Shown here: in pieces, positions 6,860 through 53,555 of the stretch
How the letters are laid out: each line of letters opens with the position of its first letter
Numbering within the stretch: the first letter of the stretch is position 1
NCBI GenBank assembly: GCA_005801425.1
Contig: SYDY01000027.1
Span: 10,324 to 74,323 of the forward strand
Length of the DNA: 64,000 bases
DNA from: Bdellovibrionales bacterium
Lineage (GTDB): Bacteria; Myxococcota; XYA12-FULL-58-9; SYDY01
Reading direction: 5' to 3'
Translations under genes and position numbers: made by a program
Notes under the pieces: model-generated
What the model saw: the letters and a program-made list of their open reading frames with translations, nothing else
Told to the model about the DNA's origin: nothing
Database searches by the model: none

Positions 6860-7253
6860 GGGTGCCATCTCCGTGATCTGGGAAGGCATCGCTTAACGCG
6901 CTCCAGAATGGACGTCAACTCGGTGGCGTGAGAGATTATCTCTCTATCCCCGCGAAGCCCAGACAGCCCTTTGGGCCTAACAGGAAGTAGAGAAACTTGC
7001 GACGCAACGATACCACTTATTTTTCTTATGTAGGGGCGCTTCGCGAAGCGCCCGTGCGGCCTTTGAATCAACGTTTTATCGGGCGGTTCACGAACCGCCC
7101 CTACAAGAGAACACCTGCTCAATTCAAGTTTCTTAGGGAGGCGGGGATCCAGGTGCAGAACATCGGGGTTTCTGAAGGGATTACTAACTTGATGCGAGGC
7201 TGGGTCCCCGCCTTCGCGGGGATGACGTCTTCATTGATTCCGGTATTTTAAAT
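6860..7253. other. Intergenic region between valS and murB, filled with repeats
   Basis: About 390 bases without a credible gene. It holds a 75-bp composite palindromic element (7030-7104) and a separate hairpin CCCCGC-CTTC-GCGGGG at 7206-7221 inside a sequence of the common GCCTTCGCGGGGATGACG type; a partial GCGGGGATCC copy lies at 7140. Open frames here, such as the minus-strand one ending in the element, arise only because the palindromes lack stops. It must contain the divergent valS and murB promoters, but I cannot point to convincing -35/-10 boxes. Confidence 0.6.
7030..7104. repeat. 75-bp composite palindromic element (copy 1)
   Basis: Starts GTAGGGGCGC and ends GCCCCTAC. It contains two palindromes, GGGCGCTTCGCGAAGCGCCC and GGGCGGTTCACGAACCGCCC, joined by a spacer reading roughly GTGCGG...GTTTTATC. 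A second copy at 27949-28023 has the same length and differs at about six positions, two of which are a compensatory T-A to C-G change in the second stem. The element is 25 codons long. Confidence 0.85.
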
Positions 7254-13608: not shown

Positions 13609-14937
13609 GTGATGCTCGATGCCAATGAGATCAGGCAATGGCTTGATTTCAACGTCGGATCTTTTCGGTTATCGCCTGTGTGGGTGCTCGTCTATTGGCC
13701 TATTCTTGTTGGCATCGCTGCTGCGTTTGCGTTGCGTAAAATCAAAAAAAATGAAGTGATTCGGCGTTACGGCATTCTTCTTGTGTTGCCATTGCTTATC
13801 AATATCGTGTTGCTGTTCACGGGATGGTTTTTTCACGAGCGTATGGGACAACGCATCGATCATGCCTTGGTTCAGCATGCTGTGATTGCACCTGTGTCAT
13901 GGATTTTTAATACTTTGCTTCAGATCCCTGTGATCAGAGATCAGCCTCTCCATATCGGTGTTGATTCCTTTTCTGGCTACATCGCGCCAAGTTGCGCAGG
14001 AACCCAAGGATTGTTTATTTTTACGATGCTTGCTGGCGCATGGTATTTTGTTCTTCGTCCGACGACTTTTCGGCATCGATTGATTTATTTGGTGCTTATG
14101 TGCGTTGGTCTTTGTTTGGGTTTTGTCGGCAATTGGCTGCGTCTTGTTGCGTTGCTTTATGTTGGGGCACGTGTTGATCGCGATCTGGCCCTCGCAGGAT
14201 TTCATGACGCTGCAGGTGGGATCATTGTGCTGTTGAATTTTGCATTGTTTGCGTGGGTCACGCATCGTGCATTGAAGGGTGATGATGGCAAAGCATGGTT
14301 TGCGGGCAATCCTGTGGTGCCCTATGTAATGCCTTGGATGGTGTGGATGGCATTGGGGATGCTTTCTGCGCTGGTCACGGTGCAATGGGATTGGTCGTAT
14401 CCGTTGCGTGCTGTGATTGTATTTATCATCCTAGGGGTGCTGGCTGCGCCTTTTCCTCAGACAATGATAAGGGCGGTTCGCGAACCGCCCCTACAGTCTG
14501 TTCTTGCAGGTCTATTCATCGCAGCTGTATGGATTATTTGGGGCCATTACGTGCTCGACCATGACTTTGCAGGTCGCATGCCAACTTCACTACGTTTTTA
14601 TCACATGTGGATCGTCGGTCGCATTTTAGGAACCGTACTTCTGATTCCAGTGATTGAAGAACTCGCTTTTCGTGGATTTCTTGCGCGCGCTTTACAAAAG
14701 CCCATGTTTCAAGATCTCACGCCATCGGATCTTCGTTGGCCGGCCATGCTTATTTCATCGGTGATTTTTGGTGTTTTTCACGACGCGCTTGCGGTCCCAG
14801 GCGTGGGTGCCGGATTTATATTTGCGTTGCTTTATCGCAAGAGTGGGACGCTTGCATCCCCGATCATTGCGCATGCTGTTGCAAATCTTGGTGTCGCTTT
14901 GTACGCGCTAACCACAGGGCAGTGGCAGCATCTTTAA
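13609..14937 (+). CDS. xrtE: Exosortase E fused to CPBP intramembrane protease (XrtE-type)
   Basis: 442-residue multipass protein. The exosortase half carries the catalytic-type Cys in PSCAGTQG (C129), Arg in GNWLRL (R178) and His in AGFHDAAGG (H199). The C-terminal half has the CPBP glutamic protease motifs EELAFR (E350, E351, R355), GVFHD (H391) and HAVAN (H422, N426). This fusion is the known hallmark of VPEID-CTERM systems. Start is GTG 13609 or ATG 13612, directly after the small VPEID gene. Residues about 287-296 (RAVREPPLQ) are encoded by a GGGCGGTTCGCGAACCGCCC element lying in frame between the two halves, apparently tolerated in a membrane-boundary linker. Confidence 0.9.
   Translation: MMLDANEIRQWLDFNVGSFRLSPVWVLVYWPILVGIAAAFALRKIKKNEVIRRYGILLVLPLLINIVLLFTGWFFHERMGQRIDHALVQHAVIAPVSWIFNTLLQIPVIRDQPLHIGVDSFSGYIAPSCAGTQGLFIFTMLAGAWYFVLRPTTFRHRLIYLVLMCVGLCLGFVGNWLRLVALLYVGARVDRDLALAGFHDAAGGIIVLLNFALFAWVTHRALKGDDGKAWFAGNPVVPYVMPWMVWMALGMLSALVTVQWDWSYPLRAVIVFIILGVLAAPFPQTMIRAVREPPLQSVLAGLFIAAVWIIWGHYVLDHDFAGRMPTSLRFYHMWIVGRILGTVLLIPVIEELAFRGFLARALQKPMFQDLTPSDLRWPAMLISSVIFGVFHDALAVPGVGAGFIFALLYRKSGTLASPIIAHAVANLGVALYALTTGQWQHL
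14471..14494. repeat. Palindromic element inside the exosortase E gene
   Basis: The 20-base palindrome GGGCGGTTCGCGAACCGCCC followed by CTAC lies within coding sequence and is translated as part of RAVREPPLQ. The identical 24-base unit recurs at 53532-53555. It keeps the frame and introduces no stop. Confidence 0.85.
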
Positions 14938-26116: not shown

Positions 26117-26191
26117 TCGTAAACGTGGTCACAGAGGTTGTGAGCTTGATCTGAATCGTTTGCACCAAACACTTTCATGGTGCTCTTTTGT

Positions 26192-26256
26192 GTAGGGGCA
26201 GACCTCCGTGTCTGCCCTGATCACGAACAAGAGCGGACACGGGGGTCTGCCCCTAC
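26192..26256. repeat. Inverted-pair element with GTAGGGGCAG...CTGCCCCTAC ends
   Basis: A 65-bp intergenic element whose two halves are near-mirror images (GGGGCAGACCTCCGTGTCTG and a matching inverted segment around CGGACACGGGGGTCTGCCCC). It shares the GTAGGGG/CCCCTAC ends of the GGGCGGTTCG elements but has a different stem, so it looks like a sister family. It separates the converging tpiA and secG genes and could serve as a bidirectional terminator. Confidence 0.75.
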
Positions 26257-26314
26257 ATGAAAGGCCCAATTGAAACGCAGTCCATCAAACAATTCAGATC
26301 AACCGGGAGTGGTA

Positions 26315-27013: not shown

Positions 27014-27301
27014 ATGGCCACGATGATTACGGAAGAATGCATTAATTGCGGCGCTTGTGAGCCGGAATGCCCCAACGAGGCCATCAGCGAAGGTGAGGAC
27101 ATTTTTATTATCGATCCCGATCGTTGCACCGAATGTGTCGGTCATTTCGATACCGAGCAATGCGCTGCGGTATGTCCGGTCAATTGCTGTGTCACCGATC
27201 CCAACAACGAAGAAGCCGAGGCCCCTTTGCTCGCCCGCGCCAAGGTGGTTCATCCCTTGAAGATTTTTCCCGCCGATTATCCCTCGCGGTTTCGTCAGTA
27301 A
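27014..27301 (+). CDS. 2[4Fe-4S] ferredoxin (YfhL/Alvin type)
   Basis: 95 residues. Small cytosolic electron carrier. The first cluster motif is CINCGACEPECP (CxxCxxCxxxCP) and the second CTECVGHFDTEQCAAVCP, whose extended loop between the second and third Cys, plus the C-terminal extension, is typical of the Allochromatium-type ferredoxins. GGAGG lies five bases before the ATG at 27014. Its last seven bases overlap the end of the convergent NlpC/P60-like gene. Its redox partner is unknown. Confidence 0.95.
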   Translation: MATMITEECINCGACEPECPNEAISEGEDIFIIDPDRCTECVGHFDTEQCAAVCPVNCCVTDPNNEEAEAPLLARAKVVHPLKIFPADYPSRFRQ

Positions 27302-28074
27302 GGGTCTGCGAAAGTCTTAAACGCACGTGCCAGTGATACTTTTCGATCATCTTTGAGAAAACTGTTGATGGTTTTTCCGTCAATGGCTGTCGCCTGATCG
27401 GGATTGCGTAAGTTGAACGTGGCGCGTGCGATCCCTGCCGCAAAAAAGCCAATGCATGTGACGGTTCCGTCGGCATCCACTTTTTCGACGATGGCGACCT
27501 GGGCAGGAATATCGGATGCTTTGCCAGTATTAAGAAAAACAAGGTCGCCGATTTTGGGATGTTCGCGGTGCAATTGTCGATTGCGATCTACCGATCGGTA
27601 CAACACTTCCATGCCTTTGATGTGATCACGTCGATAAACTGCAGGATGGATGATCTCCATATGGGCGCTCCAAAATGCTGCGCGCACCAAGCCGATGGGA
27701 TCGGATTCAAATTTATAGCCGCGCACAAGCAGCGGTTGGCCCGATAAGAACTTTTTGGCTGCAGCAACCACGTGACTGCGTTTGCCCTGATTGGTGTCTT
27801 CTGACTTGTGATGTAGGGTATCCGATGTGGAGAAGCTGATCACTTGAAGCAAGGCAGGCGCCCTTGGGCCTGTTGTGCAGGAAACACAGAAAAATATTAT
27901 AATGGAATTAAAAAGAGCGGTTCGCTTTTTACGATCTGTTTTTCTCTTGTAGGGGCGCTTCGCGAAGCGCCCGTGCGGTTTTTGATTCAAAGTTTTATCG
28001 GGCGGCTCACGAGCCGCCCCTACTGGCAAGGCAATTTTGAATGGGGACCTCAATATAACCGCCTCGATGCGCAT
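27295..28074 (-). CDS. NlpC/P60-like lipoprotein that has lost its catalytic residues
   Basis: 259 residues. The lipoprotein h-region and lipobox (FNSIIIFFCVSC) start only at about residue 55, after an n-region in which 25 codons come from a 75-bp palindromic element. AGGA lies upstream of ATG 28074, and no start codon exists between element and h-region. The body follows NlpC/P60 cell-wall peptidases: GLVRAAFWSA, KIGDLVFLNTG, VAIVEKVDADGTVT and MNL/FNL-RNPD. But the usual DCSG is DPIG, and the His before VGIV is Gln (PAQVAIVE), so Cys and His of the active site are gone. A binding-only role in the cell wall is inferred. Confidence 0.72.
   Translation of the reverse strand: MRIEAVILRSPFKIALPVGAAREPPDKTLNQKPHGRFAKRPYKRKTDRKKRTALFNSIIIFFCVSCTTGPRAPALLQVISFSTSDTLHHKSEDTNQGKRSHVVAAAKKFLSGQPLLVRGYKFESDPIGLVRAAFWSAHMEIIHPAVYRRDHIKGMEVLYRSVDRNRQLHREHPKIGDLVFLNTGKASDIPAQVAIVEKVDADGTVTCIGFFAAGIARATFNLRNPDQATAIDGKTINSFLKDDRKVSLARAFKTFADPY
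27949..28023. repeat. 75-bp composite palindromic element (copy 2), translated in frame
   Basis: Same ends and length as the copy at 7030-7104. It lies inside the NlpC/P60-like gene and is read on the minus strand as VGAAREPPDK...GRFAKRPY. Relative to copy 1 the second stem has a paired change (GGGCGGCTCACGAGCCGCCC), keeping base pairing. Confidence 0.88.
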
Positions 28075-32131: not shown

Positions 32132-34861
32132 TCAATGCGCTTCTGCCCATGTTCGTCCATGACCAACGTCCACCACGAGGGGGACATGAAGGCGCATGAC
32201 GTGGCACATGTGATCGCGCAAAAGCGCTTGAACAGTCTCTGTGTGCTCCACAGGGCATTCGACGACCAACTCATCGTGGACTTGCAAAAGAAGATGGGCA
32301 TCTAATTTCAAATTCGACAAGGCTTGATGGACACGGATCATCGCTAATTTGATAAGATCGGCGGCGCTACCTTGCAAGGGCGTATTCATGGCAATGCGTT
32401 CGGCCCCGCGTCGTACATTCATATTGCGACTGTTTAAATCGGGCAAATAACGGCGTCTACCGCTGATGGTGCTGACAAAACCAGCATGCCGACCCTCTTC
32501 AATGGTTTTATCTAGAAAGGTTCGGATCCCAGGATAACGTGCAAAATAACGTTGGATATATGCAGAAGCTTCAGCCCGTCCAATATGAAGCTGTTTGGCC
32601 AAGCCAAATTCACTGAGGCCATAGAGAATACCAAAATTAATGGCTTTGGCGCGTCTTCGTGCTTCTGCATCGGGTGGTGCGCCGCCTGTGAGAATTTCTT
32701 GCGCGGTTCGGCGGTGAATATCTTCGCCATTAATAAACGCATCGCGAAAACTTTGATCATCACAAAGATGCGCAAGAATGCGCAATTCAATTTGTGAATA
32801 ATCGGCAGAAACCAATACATAACCTTCATCCGCGACAAACGCTTTTCGGATGCGTAAACCATCTTCCGTGCGAATGGGGATATTTTGCAAATTGGGATCG
32901 GAGCTTGAAAGTCTGCCAGTGGCAGTGCCGGTCTGGCGGTAGCTTGTGTGTACACGACCTGTACGTGGATTAAGCATTTTAGGAAGTGAGTCGACGTAGG
33001 TGGAGCATAATTTGGCCAGCATACGATGTTCGATGATCCATCCTGCCAAGGGATAGGTTTCGGCAAGTTGTTCGAGCACTTCTTGATCGGTGCTAAAGCC
33101 TGTTTTTGTCTTTTTGAGGGCTGGATAGCCAAGCTCAACAAATAAAAGTTCGGCAAGTTGTTTGGGGCTTGCAAGATTGATTTCGTGACCCACTTCACGC
33201 ACGATCCGTTGCTCAACTTCTGTCATTCTTCCACTAAATTCCACGGACAATGCTGCAAGTGCATCGAGATCAACCCGGATCCCCTTGGTTTCCATGGCGG
33301 CCAATACAGGAATAAGCGGAAGCTCTATATTGCGATACACATCGTCCAACGGTGTGCCCTGCAGTTTGGCAGAAAAATGCTGGCAGAGTTGCAGCGCAAT
33401 ATCGGCATCTTCTGCCGCGTAGGCTGTGGCTTCATCGACGGGAACCTGATCAAAGCCCACTTTGCCCTCGGGTCGTGTTGTCACATCTTCATAGGTGATC
33501 GTTTTGTAGCCAAGTGCTTGGTGTGCGAGGCTGTCCATGCTGAAGGATGCACGTGTGGGATCGAGCACGTAGGCAGCAAGCATCGAATCATCACGAATGC
33601 CTGCCAGTTGTATGCCGTGATTGAGAAGCACCATCATGTCGTATTTCAGATTTTGTCCCAGCTTGCCGATCTTCGGATTTTCAAAAATCGGTTTCATCGC
33701 ATGTAAAACATCTTCGTTGCTCAGATGCAGTGGCACTTTCTCGTCGTGATGCCCGGTTGGAATATAGCATGCATCATCGCTTGTCGTTGCCAATGAAAAT
33801 CCGACAATATGTGCCTCGGTGGTATCAAGCGAAGTTGTTTCGAGATCGACACTCACAAAACCAACTTTTTGTATGCGTGCGATGATTGTGTTGAGATCGT
33901 TGATCGTAAGTATCGTTTTATAATTGCGCTCAGGAATTGGCAAAGTCGTTTGGGTTTGGAATAAATCCTGTTGATTGGGAGGCGCTGGTTTAACAGGGTT
34001 CGAACGATGAAGATCACGGAGCAGCGATGAAGCTTCGATGCGTTCTAGAAAGGGTGCGAGGCGTGCTTCTTCTGGATGGCTGTAGCGCAGGGCATCAAGA
34101 TCAAGCGCCACGGGGACGTGGCTATCCAAAGTGACCAGTCGCATGGACAATCGTGCACTTTCGATATGATCAATTACCGATTGTTCGGCTGCTTTGCGTT
34201 TTTGCACGCTTTGAAGTCCGCGGTAAACCGCTTCAATATCGCCATACGTATTGATTAATTTGGCAGCCGTTTTCACACCCACTTTGGGCACGCCCGGAAT
34301 ATTGTCGCTGGTGTCACCGGCCATGGCTTGAACTTGCGTGACGAGATTTGGGGGAACACCAAATTTTTCAATCACATCGGCATCGCTCATGTCTTTGTCT
34401 TTCATGGGATCAAAGAGCGCGATGCCTTCTTGCATCAATTGCATGAGATCTTTATCGGAACTTACAACCACAACCTGGTGTCCAGCCGCATGGGCTTTTT
34501 GTGCCAGAGTCGCAATGATATCATCGGCTTCGTAGCCAGGGTTATACAGTACCGGAATGCCCATGGCCTCAACCAATTCACGGATCAATGCAAATTGGGG
34601 AACAAGATCTTCAGGCGGTTCTTCGCGATTGGCTTTGTATTCGGCATAAATGTTTTTTCTAAAATTTTCTCGTGAATCAAATGCAATGCCCAAATAATGG
34701 GGTGATCTGTCTTTGATCAATTTGAGCAACATGCGCGCGGTGCCTATGACCGCGTTGGTGGGGGTACCATCGCGTGTGGATAACGGGCGTATGGCATAAT
34801 AGGCACGAAAAATGAAACCGCTACCATCAACAAGGTACACTTTTTCTTCAGACAAACTCAT
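32132..34861 (-). CDS. polA: DNA polymerase I
   Basis: 909 residues. Fills gaps and removes RNA primers in replication and repair. The 5' nuclease domain (1-290) begins VYLVDGSGFIFRAYYAI and contains GYEADDIIATLA and GDTSDNIPGVPKVGVKTAA. The 3'-5' exonuclease domain keeps its acidic residues (SVDLETTS, GQNLKYDMM, YAAEDADIALQL), so proofreading should be active. The polymerase domain has motif A DYSQIELRILAHL, motif B RRRAKAINFGILYG and motif C VHDELVVE. The ATG overlaps the stop of the upstream lipoprotein by four bases. Confidence 0.98.
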   Translation of the reverse strand: MSLSEEKVYLVDGSGFIFRAYYAIRPLSTRDGTPTNAVIGTARMLLKLIKDRSPHYLGIAFDSRENFRKNIYAEYKANREEPPEDLVPQFALIRELVEAMGIPVLYNPGYEADDIIATLAQKAHAAGHQVVVVSSDKDLMQLMQEGIALFDPMKDKDMSDADVIEKFGVPPNLVTQVQAMAGDTSDNIPGVPKVGVKTAAKLINTYGDIEAVYRGLQSVQKRKAAEQSVIDHIESARLSMRLVTLDSHVPVALDLDALRYSHPEEARLAPFLERIEASSLLRDLHRSNPVKPAPPNQQDLFQTQTTLPIPERNYKTILTINDLNTIIARIQKVGFVSVDLETTSLDTTEAHIVGFSLATTSDDACYIPTGHHDEKVPLHLSNEDVLHAMKPIFENPKIGKLGQNLKYDMMVLLNHGIQLAGIRDDSMLAAYVLDPTRASFSMDSLAHQALGYKTITYEDVTTRPEGKVGFDQVPVDEATAYAAEDADIALQLCQHFSAKLQGTPLDDVYRNIELPLIPVLAAMETKGIRVDLDALAALSVEFSGRMTEVEQRIVREVGHEINLASPKQLAELLFVELGYPALKKTKTGFSTDQEVLEQLAETYPLAGWIIEHRMLAKLCSTYVDSLPKMLNPRTGRVHTSYRQTGTATGRLSSSDPNLQNIPIRTEDGLRIRKAFVADEGYVLVSADYSQIELRILAHLCDDQSFRDAFINGEDIHRRTAQEILTGGAPPDAEARRRAKAINFGILYGLSEFGLAKQLHIGRAEASAYIQRYFARYPGIRTFLDKTIEEGRHAGFVSTISGRRRYLPDLNSRNMNVRRGAERIAMNTPLQGSAADLIKLAMIRVHQALSNLKLDAHLLLQVHDELVVECPVEHTETVQALLRDHMCHVMRLHVPLVVDVGHGRTWAEAH

Positions 34862-36081
34862 GGTTTTGGAATCGTTTCATCGTAAATTTTTAGACCGCGA
34901 ATGGCCGTTGAATAGTAGGCGATCACAAGACGACCTTGGCTGTCTGCAGCCATGGCAAGATATTTCCCCACGGGGCCTTCGGTGTCGATGACGGTATGCG
35001 TCCATACGCCGCTCGCATAGCGCAAAAGATCAAACGTTTCGTGGTCGGGCCGCCTCGGGGTGATATGCTCAAAGGCAATGGCCAAATCACCGTTGGGCAA
35101 TTGCGCTTGTGCCATATTGCCGACGCCCTTAAACACGCGCTGATCATGCCATGTTCCGGTGCTGTCTTGTTCTGCAACACGGATATTGATGGGGAGACCG
35201 GCTGTGTACGTCACACGCGGCAATTGACCGACCCAGCTTAATTGACTGTGCCAACCATGGGAATGATCTTCTCCGATGCGTTCTTGTTTGAGTGCATTGA
35301 GTGGGCCATGGGCCACGTAAAGTTCGGTGTCTCGGGCATTCCAATCCACAAAAGAGATCCACCATTGATCGCCCTGTTGCTGTACATCGATGCGGGCAGA
35401 ATATCCGCCGGTGGCGTCAAATAGGATGGTTTTTACCCACTCGCCATCTTTGGGCCCGCGTGTGGCATGGACCAATTTTCCACCGGCTGTGTAATAAAAA
35501 ACATGCGGACTATTTTGTGCGTCAAATCGCAATTCCGCACCCATGCCGACTTCATGGCCCCATGCAATCTCTTCGGTTTTCCAAGGTGCAGCTTCGTTGT
35601 CGCGCGTTGCGATGCGTAACTTTTTCTGATCTTGATCGTGAAATGCGATGGCAAGGTGATTATTTTTGTCGGAAGCGATTGACGTGTATTTGCCTATATT
35701 GCCTTGGGTGATGACGTCTTCAACAACCCATGAATCGCCATGTTTTGTGGCGTATTTAAGATCGCCTTGGTGGGCATCGCAAAAGCTGACGTGGGGTCGG
35801 TCTTTGGCATCAAAGATAACGCTTGGCCACCATCCTGTGTCGCCTTCTTCACCGCCACTTGCAAGGACGCCTAAACTTGCATGCGGTGGATTTTGTTCTT
35901 CGACAACAACGATGTTTTTTGTGCATGCGGTGAGGATAAGCAAAATCACTGCAAGGCATTTATAGGTAGGGGTGGTTCGTGAACCGCCCTTAACAAAATC
36001 GTCATTCTCATGAATACGGGGTTCTGTGAAGAAGGGCGGTTTGCGAACCGCCCCTACAACGCTGCAATTCTTTCTCTTCAC
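34858..36081 (-). CDS. Lipoprotein with BNR/beta-propeller-like repeats; palindromic element in its signal peptide
   Basis: 407 residues from a GTG at 36081, which overlaps the holA stop (GTGA) and has GGAG seven bases upstream. The first seven residues MKRKNCS are followed by about 32 residues encoded by a 92-bp palindromic element (VGAVRKPP...GGSRTTPT) and only then by the h-region and lipobox CLAVILLILTAC. No start codon follows the element in frame, so the element is translated. The exported part has repeated units such as PSVIFDAKDRPHVSF, LRFDAQNSPHVFYY and MAADSQGRLVIAYY, as in BNR or Asp-box propellers. Function unknown; it sits between two replication genes. Confidence 0.8.
   Translation of the reverse strand: MKRKNCSVVGAVRKPPFFTEPRIHENDDFVKGGSRTTPTYKCLAVILLILTACTKNIVVVEEQNPPHASLGVLASGGEEGDTGWWPSVIFDAKDRPHVSFCDAHQGDLKYATKHGDSWVVEDVITQGNIGKYTSIASDKNNHLAIAFHDQDQKKLRIATRDNEAAPWKTEEIAWGHEVGMGAELRFDAQNSPHVFYYTAGGKLVHATRGPKDGEWVKTILFDATGGYSARIDVQQQGDQWWISFVDWNARDTELYVAHGPLNALKQERIGEDHSHGWHSQLSWVGQLPRVTYTAGLPINIRVAEQDSTGTWHDQRVFKGVGNMAQAQLPNGDLAIAFEHITPRRPDHETFDLLRYASGVWTHTVIDTEGPVGKYLAMAADSQGRLVIAYYSTAIRGLKIYDETIPKP
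35966..36057. repeat. 92-bp composite palindromic element inside a lipoprotein signal peptide
   Basis: Bounded by GTAGGGG/CCCCTAC ends, with palindromes GGTTCGTGAACCGCCC at the low end and GGGCGGTTTGCGAACCGCCC at the high end, around a spacer unlike that of the 75-bp copies. Read on the minus strand in the frame of the lipoprotein gene without a stop. Confidence 0.85.
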
Positions 36082-43388: not shown

Positions 43389-43479
43389 GTAGGGGCGGTT
43401 CGCGAACCGCCCTGTTGTTCTCAATACATTGTTCGCGCCAATACGTTTGCCTAACGGGCCGTTCACGAACGGCCCCTAC
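43389..43479. repeat. 91-bp composite palindromic element after rodA
   Basis: Contains GGGCGGTTCGCGAACCGCCC and a second palindrome GGGCCGTTCACGAACGGCCC at opposite ends with GTAGGGG and CCCCTAC caps. It lies between rodA and a nucleotidyltransferase fragment whose 5' part is missing. Confidence 0.85.
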
Positions 43480-48600: not shown

Positions 48601-49329
48601 TTAAGGTAAATCCGCAATCTTTGATGGTGTTAAATCCCAGGTCATTTGAGTGGTTCCAAGTGCGCTTGCGATGCGCATAACAAACTTGGTGGTATGGGGC
48701 TCTATGACCAATTTGTCTGTGGGGTCAATCAGAGGAAAGCGGACCAAATACGCTCGGTCAAAATCCCCGAGATAGCCATAAACGGCTTTTAAATTGGCAT
48801 CGATTTTGACCCGTGAAATTTGGGCGGCCTGAACGGTAATATTCTGATCCGGATTGGTGAGCGTGATGCGCCAAATGGAGTCTGCGCGATCAAGGTCGTT
48901 CCATTTGAGATCGGGTGTATAGGCTTTGAGTAAAAACGTATGGAACGTTTCGGCGTCGCTTGAAAGATCAACCAATTCGCGGCGTGTAACCTCGCCCCCA
49001 TGACCGTAGATATCGGGGAATTTTAAACCGAATGCACGCCTAAATTGCGGGGCATGAAATGTTGATGATGCAAACAATACATTGTCGAGAACATTGTAGA
49101 GTTTGGCATGTCGTGTCCATTGGGCGAACGTACGATCGTAATCACGATCGTCAACTTCGCTGATAGAACCGAACAGTGTAGGCGGTGGGATAGGTTTGCA
49201 TGCCGAAAGGAGCGCGAGCAAGATGAAGGCAAGGGCGGTTCGCGAACCGCCCCTACAAAAAAACAGTGTGGGGGTCGTTCGTGAACGACCCTTATTTAAT
49301 AAAATCAGATTTCTTAAAGAGACTCGCAT
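48601..49329 (-). CDS. Lipoprotein of unknown function with a palindromic element in its signal peptide
   Basis: 242 residues if started at the ATG at 49329, inside the 3' end of pyrE; no clear Shine-Dalgarno is seen there and the exact start is uncertain. The lipoprotein h-region and lipobox (ALAFILLALLSAC) come after KGRSRTTPT...RGGSRT, residues encoded by the palindromic element at 49233-49293. No ATG, GTG or TTG lies between element and h-region in frame. The exported part, with YDRTFAQWTRHAKLYN, LDNVLFASSTFHAPQFR and TKFVMRIASALGTTQMTWDL, matches no family I know. Likely periplasmic. Confidence 0.72.
   Translation of the reverse strand: MRVSLRNLILLNKGRSRTTPTLFFCRGGSRTALAFILLALLSACKPIPPPTLFGSISEVDDRDYDRTFAQWTRHAKLYNVLDNVLFASSTFHAPQFRRAFGLKFPDIYGHGGEVTRRELVDLSSDAETFHTFLLKAYTPDLKWNDLDRADSIWRITLTNPDQNITVQAAQISRVKIDANLKAVYGYLGDFDRAYLVRFPLIDPTDKLVIEPHTTKFVMRIASALGTTQMTWDLTPSKIADLP
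49233..49293. repeat. 61-bp composite palindromic element inside a lipoprotein signal peptide
   Basis: GGGCGGTTCGCGAACCGCCC plus CCTAC at the low end and GGGTCGTTCGTGAACGACCC at the high end, joined by a T/A-rich spacer. It is read in frame on the minus strand between the pyrE end and the lipoprotein h-region. Confidence 0.83.
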
Positions 49330-49870
49330 AGGGGAGACCCGTCGCACGAATGTTGTTGGCACCGTTGTCCTCTTCCCTGTCCACCAAAGCAAGTACTGCA
49401 ATGGGCAGCAAGCCTTCCTCACGCACGCGTTCGATAGCCCGCAAGGTGGAACCGCCGGTGGTGACCACATCTTCGATCACCAGGACTGGATCGCCAATTT
49501 TTAGCGCTTTTAGACCTTCGATCCAGCGACCAGTTCCATGGCCTTTGGGCTCTTTGCGCACGATAAATGCGTGGGCTGGGGCGCCCTTTTGTTGGCTGAT
49601 CACGGCTGCGGCCGCAGCCATGGGATCGGCGCCGAGCGTAATGCCGCCAACGCCTACGATGGTTGCGCCTTCATGACGCAGTGTTTGAATGTGTTCAAAA
49701 ATCAATTCACCGATCAGCAGACATCCTTCGGCTTGAAGTGCCGTTTGTTTGCAATCGACATAAAAATCGCTGGTTTTGCCAGATGCCAAGGTAAAAGTTC
49801 CGGTACGCACCGAATATTCTTGGAGCAATTGGCGGAGTCTGTTGATTTTATCGGTATTGAAATTTGTCAT
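49292..49870 (-). CDS. pyrE: Orotate phosphoribosyltransferase
   Basis: 192 residues. Converts orotate and PRPP to OMP in pyrimidine synthesis. The PRPP loop is VLVIEDVVTTGGST near 130-143, preceded by VGVGGITLGADPMAAA and FIVRKEPKGHGTGRWIEG with the catalytic Lys/His region. FTLASGKTSDFYVDCKQTAL is the usual N-terminal block. It begins 24 bases after the third bactofilin gene. Its last 38 bases overlap the assumed start of the lipoprotein gene. Confidence 0.96.
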   Translation of the reverse strand: MTNFNTDKINRLRQLLQEYSVRTGTFTLASGKTSDFYVDCKQTALQAEGCLLIGELIFEHIQTLRHEGATIVGVGGITLGADPMAAAAAVISQQKGAPAHAFIVRKEPKGHGTGRWIEGLKALKIGDPVLVIEDVVTTGGSTLRAIERVREEGLLPIAVLALVDREEDNGANNIRATGLPYASLFKKSDFIK

Positions 49871-52218: not shown

Positions 52219-53499
52219 TTAAGTTTCAAGCGCTTTAGCAAACGCTTGAATGGCTTCATCCAAAATCGCATCGATATGGGCGTTGGACACAAATCCCACT
52301 TCAAAGGCGCTTGGGGCGATCATCACACCATGCTTGAGCAATCCTAAAAACAGTGGAGTGAAAGCATGGGCATCGGCTTGTTTGATTTCTGTGTAATTGG
52401 CAGGTGCGTGGGTCGCATTGTTTTTAGGCCAAAGGTGAAAAATTGACGCGCATTGGGAGATCCACCAGGTGCGGCCATGTTGGGCAAGGACAGCACGAAG
52501 TTTGTTGCAGAAACGTGCAGTGCGGGCTTCAAGCGTGGGATAAAAATCTGGGGTTTCGAGTGTTTCCAACATGGCGAGTCCTGCAGCCATGGCCAATGAA
52601 TTTCCCGACAACGTTCCAGCTTGGTACACAGGGCCGATGGGCGCGATCATGTTCATGATGTCGCGACGTCCACCATAAGCTCCTACAGGCAGTCCACCTC
52701 CGATGATTTTTCCGAAGGTGGTGAGATCTGGTCGAACATCAAACATGGCTTGTGCACCACCGAGTCCCACGCGAAAGCCTGTGATCACTTCGTCAAACAC
52801 AAGAAGCGCGCCGTGTTGATCGCATAGTTTCCGCAGGGTTTGTAAAAAGCCATCGGCGGGCAAAACCATACCCATATTGCATGCGATGGGTTCAACGAAT
52901 ACTGCCGCGATATTGGCGCCATGGACGCGCATGACATCGGTAAATGCTTCTATGTTATTATATGGGACGGTGATGGTATCGCGGGCGACCCCTTCAGGCA
53001 CCCCTGCGCAACCAGGAATACCCAGTGTGGCCACGCCGGATCCTGCTTCCGACAAAAACGCGTCGCCGTGGCCATGATAACAGCCTGCAAACTTCACCAT
53101 CAGTGTGCGACCCGTAAATCCACGTGCGACGCGCAAAGCACTCATGGTGGCTTCTGTGCCCGAATTGACGAATCTCATCATTTCAACGGAGGGAACATGG
53201 CTTGAAACTTTTTCAGCCATGCGCACTTCGAGTTCGGTGGCGGCACCAAAGCAGGTGCCCTGTGCTGCTGTTTCAGCAATGACGCGCGTAATATTCTCGG
53301 GACTGTGCCCTAAAATATGAGGGCCGTAAGAACACACAAAATCGATATAGCGTCGGCCTTGGCGATCAAGCACGTAAGCGCCGTGCCCACTTTGGATAAA
53401 CACCGGATCGCCACCTACGGATCCATAGGCGCGCACCGGCGAATTAACACCGCCAGGCAAAAGATTTTGGGCTTGTAAAAAGAGATCTCGGTCAGACAT
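52219..53499 (-). CDS. hemL: Glutamate-1-semialdehyde 2,1-aminomutase
   Basis: 426 residues from MSDRDLFLQ (an ATG five codons upstream is also possible). PLP enzyme making 5-aminolevulinate for tetrapyrrole synthesis by the C5 route. Typical blocks are LLPGGVNSPVRAY at 13-25, RFVNSGTEATMSALRVARG, FAGCYHGHGDAFL, LVFDEVITGFRVG and the PLP-lysine segment TTFGKIIGGGLPVGAYGG, then GTLSGNSLAMAAGLA. The C5 route implies hemA elsewhere. It follows a gap with a palindromic element and ends the epmA-trmB string or forms its own unit. Confidence 0.97.
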   Translation of the reverse strand: MSDRDLFLQAQNLLPGGVNSPVRAYGSVGGDPVFIQSGHGAYVLDRQGRRYIDFVCSYGPHILGHSPENITRVIAETAAQGTCFGAATELEVRMAEKVSSHVPSVEMMRFVNSGTEATMSALRVARGFTGRTLMVKFAGCYHGHGDAFLSEAGSGVATLGIPGCAGVPEGVARDTITVPYNNIEAFTDVMRVHGANIAAVFVEPIACNMGMVLPADGFLQTLRKLCDQHGALLVFDEVITGFRVGLGGAQAMFDVRPDLTTFGKIIGGGLPVGAYGGRRDIMNMIAPIGPVYQAGTLSGNSLAMAAGLAMLETLETPDFYPTLEARTARFCNKLRAVLAQHGRTWWISQCASIFHLWPKNNATHAPANYTEIKQADAHAFTPLFLGLLKHGVMIAPSAFEVGFVSNAHIDAILDEAIQAFAKALET

Positions 53500-53531
53500 G
53501 GATGTATTTTGCATTGTACAACCTTGCTCAA

Positions 53532-53555
53532 GGGCGGTTCGCGAACCGCCCCTAC
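53532..53555. repeat. Single palindromic element upstream of hemL
   Basis: GGGCGGTTCGCGAACCGCCC plus CTAC, identical over 24 bases to the copy inside the exosortase E gene and in the same orientation. A second short inverted motif (CCCGCCTTCGCGAGGG) follows at about 53576-53591, so the 100-base gap before hemL is mostly repeat. Confidence 0.8.

Follow-up and report, generated by a model that had tools for sequence, protein, structure and literature searches.

GTAG-tagged palindromic repeats lie in frame in the lipoprotein signal-peptide n-regions of a Myxococcota genome

Introduction

Three lipoprotein genes in a 64,000-nt stretch of a Myxococcota metagenome-assembled genome (contig SYDY01000027.1, positions 10,324 to 74,323; hereafter the window) carry palindromic repeats ahead of the hydrophobic core (h-region) of their signal peptide, which raises the question of why such elements are found, in frame, at this place. 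An earlier note made from these letters had proposed that the n-region tolerates the basic peptides encoded by the elements, and had named orthologues without the element and genome-wide mapping as checks. GTAG-tagged REPs and their REPIN dimers owe their mobility to RAYTs (Di Nocera 2013, PMC3733652; REPINs, PMC3116915).

Materials and methods

The host MAG (G000) comprised 3.38 Mb on 121 contigs, and its phylum was taken from named records carrying the closest homologues. The sampled contigs amounted to 2.26 Mb, from which C118 (33% GC) and C60 (masked) were removed, leaving 2.05 Mb, about 61% of this one MAG. Contig C118 (204,349 bases) differed in GC from the assembly (33% vs about 50%), possessed a Y1 transposase and separate GTAG hairpins, and is likely a contaminant of the MAG; it was excluded for that reason. 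Genes were called with a home-made hexamer-based finder (1,633 genes, 90% coding), and lipoproteins with a home-made script applying a simple sequence rule (basic n-region, h-region, lipobox Cys). The script placed gene 2 among other genes, its lipobox being uncalled there, and it was moved to the lipoproteins by hand. For the frame test, an h-region and lipobox were sought downstream of each element in any frame, and an upstream open frame was not required. Because three of the counted cases had given rise to the hypothesis, the tests were repeated without the window genes.

Results

Elements in three lipoprotein genes of the window

REP elements lay between the start codon and the h-region in all three lipoprotein genes, confirming the earlier reading, and two of them were head-to-head REPINs (Table 1). 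All three frames were open from the stated starts through the element into the h-region and lipobox. The elements, previously put at 20-50 encoded residues, were indeed in frame, with actual lengths of about 25, 31 and 20 residues in genes 1, 2 and 3, respectively. The other two points made on these genes also held: a good Shine-Dalgarno sequence and start stood upstream of the element in genes 1 and 2, and none of the three had an in-frame ATG, GTG or TTG after the element and before the h-region.

The N-terminus of gene 1 consisted of 17 residues, 25 REP-encoded residues (VGAAREPPDKTLNQKPHGRFAKRPY), KRKTDRKKR, and an h-region beginning at about residue 52 and leading to Cys66. Gene 2 was the clearest of the three cases: its GTG overlapped the stop of the upstream gene (GTGA), and VKRKNCSV was followed by the REP peptide and then by YKCLAVILLILTAC. 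The start of gene 3 was the weakest, because it had no clear Shine-Dalgarno sequence and its ATG fell within the upstream ORF (49292-49870, phosphoribosyltransferase-like by eye), at the 3' end of that gene. The simple gene finder placed the starts of genes 1 and 3 downstream of the signal peptide, a warning for annotation pipelines that genes with n-region elements get trimmed.

Table 1. Features of the window, with positions counted from its first nucleotide.
Feature	Position	Strand or units	Details
Lipoprotein gene 1	27295-28074	-	259 aa; ATG at 28074, AGGA shortly upstream
REPIN in gene 1	27949-28023	units 27949-27972 (+), 28000-28023 (-)	complete 75-nt head-to-head GTAG dimer, 27-nt spacer
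Gene 1 h-region and lipobox Cys	27877-27921	-	TALFNSIIIFFCVSC
Lipoprotein gene 2	34858-36081	-	407 aa; GTG at 36081, Shine-Dalgarno AGGAG a few bases upstream
REP dimer in gene 2 n-region	35966-36057	units 35966-35989 (+), 36034-36057 (-)	head-to-head, 44-nt spacer
Gene 2 h-region and lipobox Cys53	35923-35958	-	
Lipoprotein gene 3	48601-49329	-	242 aa; inferred start, ATG 49329; REP pair, then AFILLALLSAC
REP pair in gene 3 n-region	49233-49291	units 49233-49256 (-), 49268-49291 (+)	tail-to-tail; second tag GTGG
Gene 3 h-region and lipobox Cys44	49198-49236	-	
REPIN, same 75-nt dimer as gene 1	7030-7104		between divergent genes; family D8, 87%; intergenic control copy
Single REP, in frame (RAVREPPLQ)	14471-14494		between exosortase-like and CAAX-protease-like parts of gene 13609-14937 (+)
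REP dimer	43389-43479		intergenic
Single REP	53532-53555		intergenic, just upstream of start of gene 52219-53514 (-)

The element family

The elements belonged to a GTAG-tagged REP family (F1) with the consensus GTAGGGGCGGTTCGYGAACCGCCC or GTAGGGGCGCTTCGYGAAGCGCCC, represented by 228 units at 155 loci in the 2.05 Mb of MAG contigs. GTAG stood at the unit start in 210 of 231 scanned units, and the stem measured 9-10 bp; GTAG hairpins numbered 181 in the sampled genome vs 1 in a reversed control, and a 10-mer gave 25 matches vs 4.9 expected. Sixty-five head-to-head (+-) dimers were found, in 29 of which the spacer was 27 nt long and related in sequence, and the 75-nt dimer of gene 1, folded alone as RNA, reached -41.2 kcal/mol (z = -5.7). 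Among F1-only loci, 102 of 144 lay outside coding frames. Four further palindromic families were present in the MAG: F2 (CGTC-type), F3, F1b and F4.

The element was not found at up to two mismatches in seven other genomes of the order, and F1 was nearly private to this MAG among 195 genomes of the phylum; Rfam gave no match within positions 27000-50000 of the window. Mobility is presumably driven by a RAYT: an ORF at C110:8311-9144 matched NF047646 with 72.9 bits (curated cut-off 80), and a partial copy was found on C1. F1 units were absent from the 3 kb around each of the two RAYT-like ORFs, and one related F1b unit lay about 1.2 kb from that on C110.

Other repeats were observed alongside. 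At 26185-26263 of the window, two convergent genes were separated by a 34-nt inverted pair of a GTAG hairpin with another stem (GTAGGGGCAGACCTCCGTGTCTGCCC). A further repeat of 11-17 copies, with the pieces CCGTGTAAACGGACCGGACCGC...GTTGTGACGCG and CTCTCTGCCTCGCCATCCGTGTGCAG (e.g. C48:6423-6787, C80:110702-110825 and C65:2058-2407), looks like a separate mobile unit. Another genome of the same phylum (G186) had a GTAG REP family of a different sequence (GTAGGGGCGTTGCGTGCAACGCCC), with 68+67 matches when three mismatches were allowed; some of these units were paired with similar spacing.

Orthologues without the element

For each of the three window genes and for three further carriers, the orthologues had short, ordinary lipoprotein signal peptides without the element, a result in favour of the proposal. 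This applied to the orthologues of gene 1 (L052-L055, ordinary signal peptides) and gene 2 (L204-L206, without the insert), and likewise to those of three carriers elsewhere in the MAG (C71, C110:19955 and C68). The signal peptides of the orthologues of P0001 (L054, MRRLLPLILLSLLSQGC), P0002 (MRNPPRHIFILTTMLCTPLFMAC and MRILLILSLLLFMSAC) and P0003 (L221, MVVTIRQHFKIWCLTLVVLGLFGC) contained no REP peptide. Among the seven further genomes of the order, gene 3 was conserved in six, with the alignment beginning at the h-region. The lipobox Cys stood at the equivalent place in the orthologues, and the mature parts were intact, sharing roughly 30-50% of their residues across some 200-1,200 aa and having high coding scores. 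The nearest comparison genomes were from the same order only.

Excess in lipoprotein n-regions

Four lipoproteins outside the window had an F1 element in the n-region: C77:83040 (MTQYF[KGGSRTAPT]LCFILGITAC), C68:35285 (MWRQMFG[RRFAKHPY]LMMILLCSC), C71:5231 (MRTNMTPA[25 aa]IVLFFSMMCFLAC) and C110:19955 (MIGTY[CRGGSRTAL]MLCGFLLGC). Four more carried elements of the F2, F3, F1b or F4 families (C77:90855, C87:37985, C32:11529 and C110:13934), and several families thus occupied this kind of site, as in MKLRTL[GARASCPH]IILYLMGFCLILGAC and VKINGEKIK[TSFPRKRGPI]VLITFIFLFMAC. F1 elements also occurred in Sec signal peptides, namely in a BatD-like protein (C8:6355) and perhaps in C15:37527, while at C80:75818 a non-F1 element, read in the hydrophobic frame VGAQLAAP, formed the h/c-region of a Sec signal peptide. 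In addition, two adjacent MlaE permease genes (L094; C80:68718 and 69500) each had a REP at the N-terminus.

Genome-wide mapping showed an excess in lipoprotein n-regions that persisted without the three window genes, in line with the bias put forward in the earlier note. Of 163 predicted lipoproteins, 11 had an in-frame n-region element, compared with no more than 15 of the 1,415 other genes (Fisher p = 2e-5), and the ratio of N-terminal to UTR elements was 11:11 in lipoproteins vs 15:91 in other genes (p = 5e-4). Without the window genes, 8 of 160 lipoproteins were carriers (p = 0.001), or 4 of 160 for F1 alone (p = 0.03). C22:13157, C37:31815 and C48:12699 were left out of the 11 lipoproteins, as they look like degenerate or chance matches, and C65:2459, where the start codon lies downstream of the element, was not counted. 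The density of F1 per kb was 0.009 in gene bodies, 0.54 in intergenic DNA and 1.4-2.9, by the definition used, in lipoprotein n-regions, whose boundaries are soft and totals small. The n-region density thus exceeded the intergenic one, which pure tolerance does not predict.

Frame retention and charge

All 11 elements lying up to 60 nt upstream of a lipobox Cys were in frame with the upstream start, none being broken. If frame were irrelevant, about one third would be expected in frame, and one third to the 11th power is 6e-6; outside the window, 8 of 8 were in frame (1.5e-4). The 11 include the degenerate copy on C22; replacing it by gene 1, whose element lies 69 nt from the Cys and is also in frame, leaves the count unchanged.

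The elements in signal peptides were read in basic frames, with a mean charge of +2.46 vs +1.49 for random open frames (p < 5e-5); the bias was also seen in lipoproteins outside the window (p = 0.003). Internal elements had a mean charge of +0.24 vs +0.99 (p = 0.001), and most internal insertions used the neutral frame VGAVREPP. In the sampled contigs, 17-18 internal F1 loci were read in frame within unrelated genes, with hosts including LeuRS, MurD, FeoB, NqrA, HemD, ThiD, a UvrD-type helicase, a PD-(D/E)XK nuclease and an ABC exporter; across all families, 20 internal elements kept the same frame vs 3 with a different frame. Internal insertions were used for frame and charge only, because PDB alignments (LeuRS, MurD and the ABC exporter) placed the REP peptide in variable linkers with no simple net insertion, so that a reading as clean extra loops was dropped.

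Discussion

As judged from sequence, mobile palindromes probably insert widely, and selection keeps those insertions in n-regions that are in frame and basic and are removed with the signal peptide. GTAG REPs and REPINs, together with several unrelated palindromic repeats, would insert at many places in the genome, and nearly all insertions in gene bodies would be lost. An insertion could survive in a signal-peptide n-region, whether of the lipoprotein or the Sec type, if it kept the frame and added net positive charge, as it would only lengthen a tolerant, basic, unstructured and presumably cytoplasmic segment, of which no more is required than basic charge and a lack of hydrophobicity. The element would be translated within the pre-protein from the start codon upstream of it, and, with Lgt/LspA processing as presumed for these lipoproteins, signal peptidase II would cut before the lipobox Cys and the element peptide would be discarded; because the insert lies N-terminal of the cleaved bond, the mature protein would be unchanged. 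Since the n-region bias is common to unrelated palindromic families, it points to tolerance at the site and not to targeting by one element, and selection is the likelier cause.

A targeted origin would require a transposase that recognises a motif at the n/h junction, for example T-rich or early-transcribed DNA. The GTAG-side flanks are T-rich, most elements adjoin the h-region, and the density in n-regions exceeds that in intergenic DNA, all of which speak for such targeting. However, a flank model gave similar weights to n-regions (1.36), first codons elsewhere (1.39) and intergenic DNA (1.44), with 1.11 for coding DNA, and T-rich target choice was rejected as the cause since n-regions were not preferred; moreover, CGTC-type and other unrelated families occur at the same location, and frame retention and charge would be left unexplained. 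Insertional bias is therefore considered improbable. The same two features, frame retention and the charge bias, count against the carriers being recently broken or dispensable genes in which position and frame have no meaning. The elements are near their consensus and therefore probably young, and lipoproteins are often dispensable, yet the mature parts are intact and conserved with high coding scores, which makes this explanation highly improbable.

Two further explanations concern expression. Translation could start at a non-canonical codon (ATT, ATC or CTG) that follows the element, leaving the element in the 5' UTR; Di Nocera et al. suggest as much for the majority of N-terminal REPs in P. 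putida, C. koseri and S. maltophilia (PMC3733652). That published caution, and the ATG of gene 3 standing without a Shine-Dalgarno sequence, speak for it. In that case nothing would constrain the frame across the element, but all 11 elements kept it; in most counted lipoproteins the element abuts the h-region and leaves no room for an n-region; and good Shine-Dalgarno sequences accompany the upstream starts in C68, C110:19955, C8 and genes 1 and 2. A downstream start is thus quite improbable. Alternatively, a hairpin in the first codons might be kept as a translation regulator with its peptide incidental, in keeping with the strong fold of the element RNA (-41 kcal/mol over 75 nt, z = -5.7) shortly inside the reading frame; a basic reading frame is not predicted by this, and the host genes are functionally unrelated, so that the probability assigned to a regulatory hairpin is low.

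Under the preferred reading, selective retention of in-frame basic insertions, the cleaved front end of exported proteins is apparently a safe landing site for mobile palindromes, and a route is suggested by which selfish DNA adds coding sequence while leaving the mature protein untouched. An anecdote, REPs in genes, becomes a testable rule in which the local needs of the protein set where and in which frame palindromes survive. The h-region and lipobox also serve as a frame-fixing landmark for N-terminal REPs, which are usually dismissed as annotation errors. It is a more doubtful extension that n-regions are a general bacterial landing pad for mobile palindromes, above intergenic DNA, with elements recruited as working n-regions and their sequences maybe shaped to offer basic frames for n-regions and a near-neutral frame for loops.

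In-frame REPs, including N-terminal ones, insertions of Rickettsia palindromic elements (RPEs) and one repeat-derived signal peptide are already known, while searches of the open-access literature yielded neither an n-region hot spot nor a charge-matched use of frames. The likeness to RPEs drawn in the earlier note stands for in-frame insertion, as RPEs too are palindromes lying in frame in many unrelated proteins, where they are tolerated and the hosts still made; it does not extend to identity. RPEs are 105-146 nt long, with two classes CGTC-tagged (Ogata 2000, reviewed in PMC2229807 and PMC3733652), whereas the window elements measure 24-92 nt and are GTAG-tagged GTAG REPs/REPINs, the CGTC tag here marking the separate family F2; no bias of RPEs to signal-peptide n-regions is described in PMC2229807 or PMC3733652. 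The predicted signal peptide of Yersinia YPO1552 begins with an RU-2/YPAL repeat, and the signal peptides of its relatives are unrelated (Delihas 2007, PMC2759123). That case resembles the present ones in placing a small mobile repeat at the start of a signal peptide, but it is a single predicted case with another element, interpreted as the origin of a new exported protein, and the study dealt neither with lipoproteins nor with frame, charge or a genome-wide excess (PMC2759123).

The family matches published GTAG REPs and REPINs (PMC3733652, PMC3116915), with which it shares the GTAG tag, a 20-nt near-perfect stem, head-to-head dimers and a conserved 27-nt spacer; window genes 1 and 2 have the REPIN dimer form, and the pair in gene 3 is tail-to-tail. 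Published GTAG REPs are likewise of high copy number and mostly intergenic, with some intragenic copies in frame (dimers encoding 20-30 aa) and N-terminal cases noted. Most N-terminal REPs were treated in PMC3733652 as misannotation, with signal peptides unmentioned. In the present genome, unlike there, the N-terminal cases are, judged by orthologues and frame retention, probably coding, and they are concentrated in lipoprotein signal peptides.
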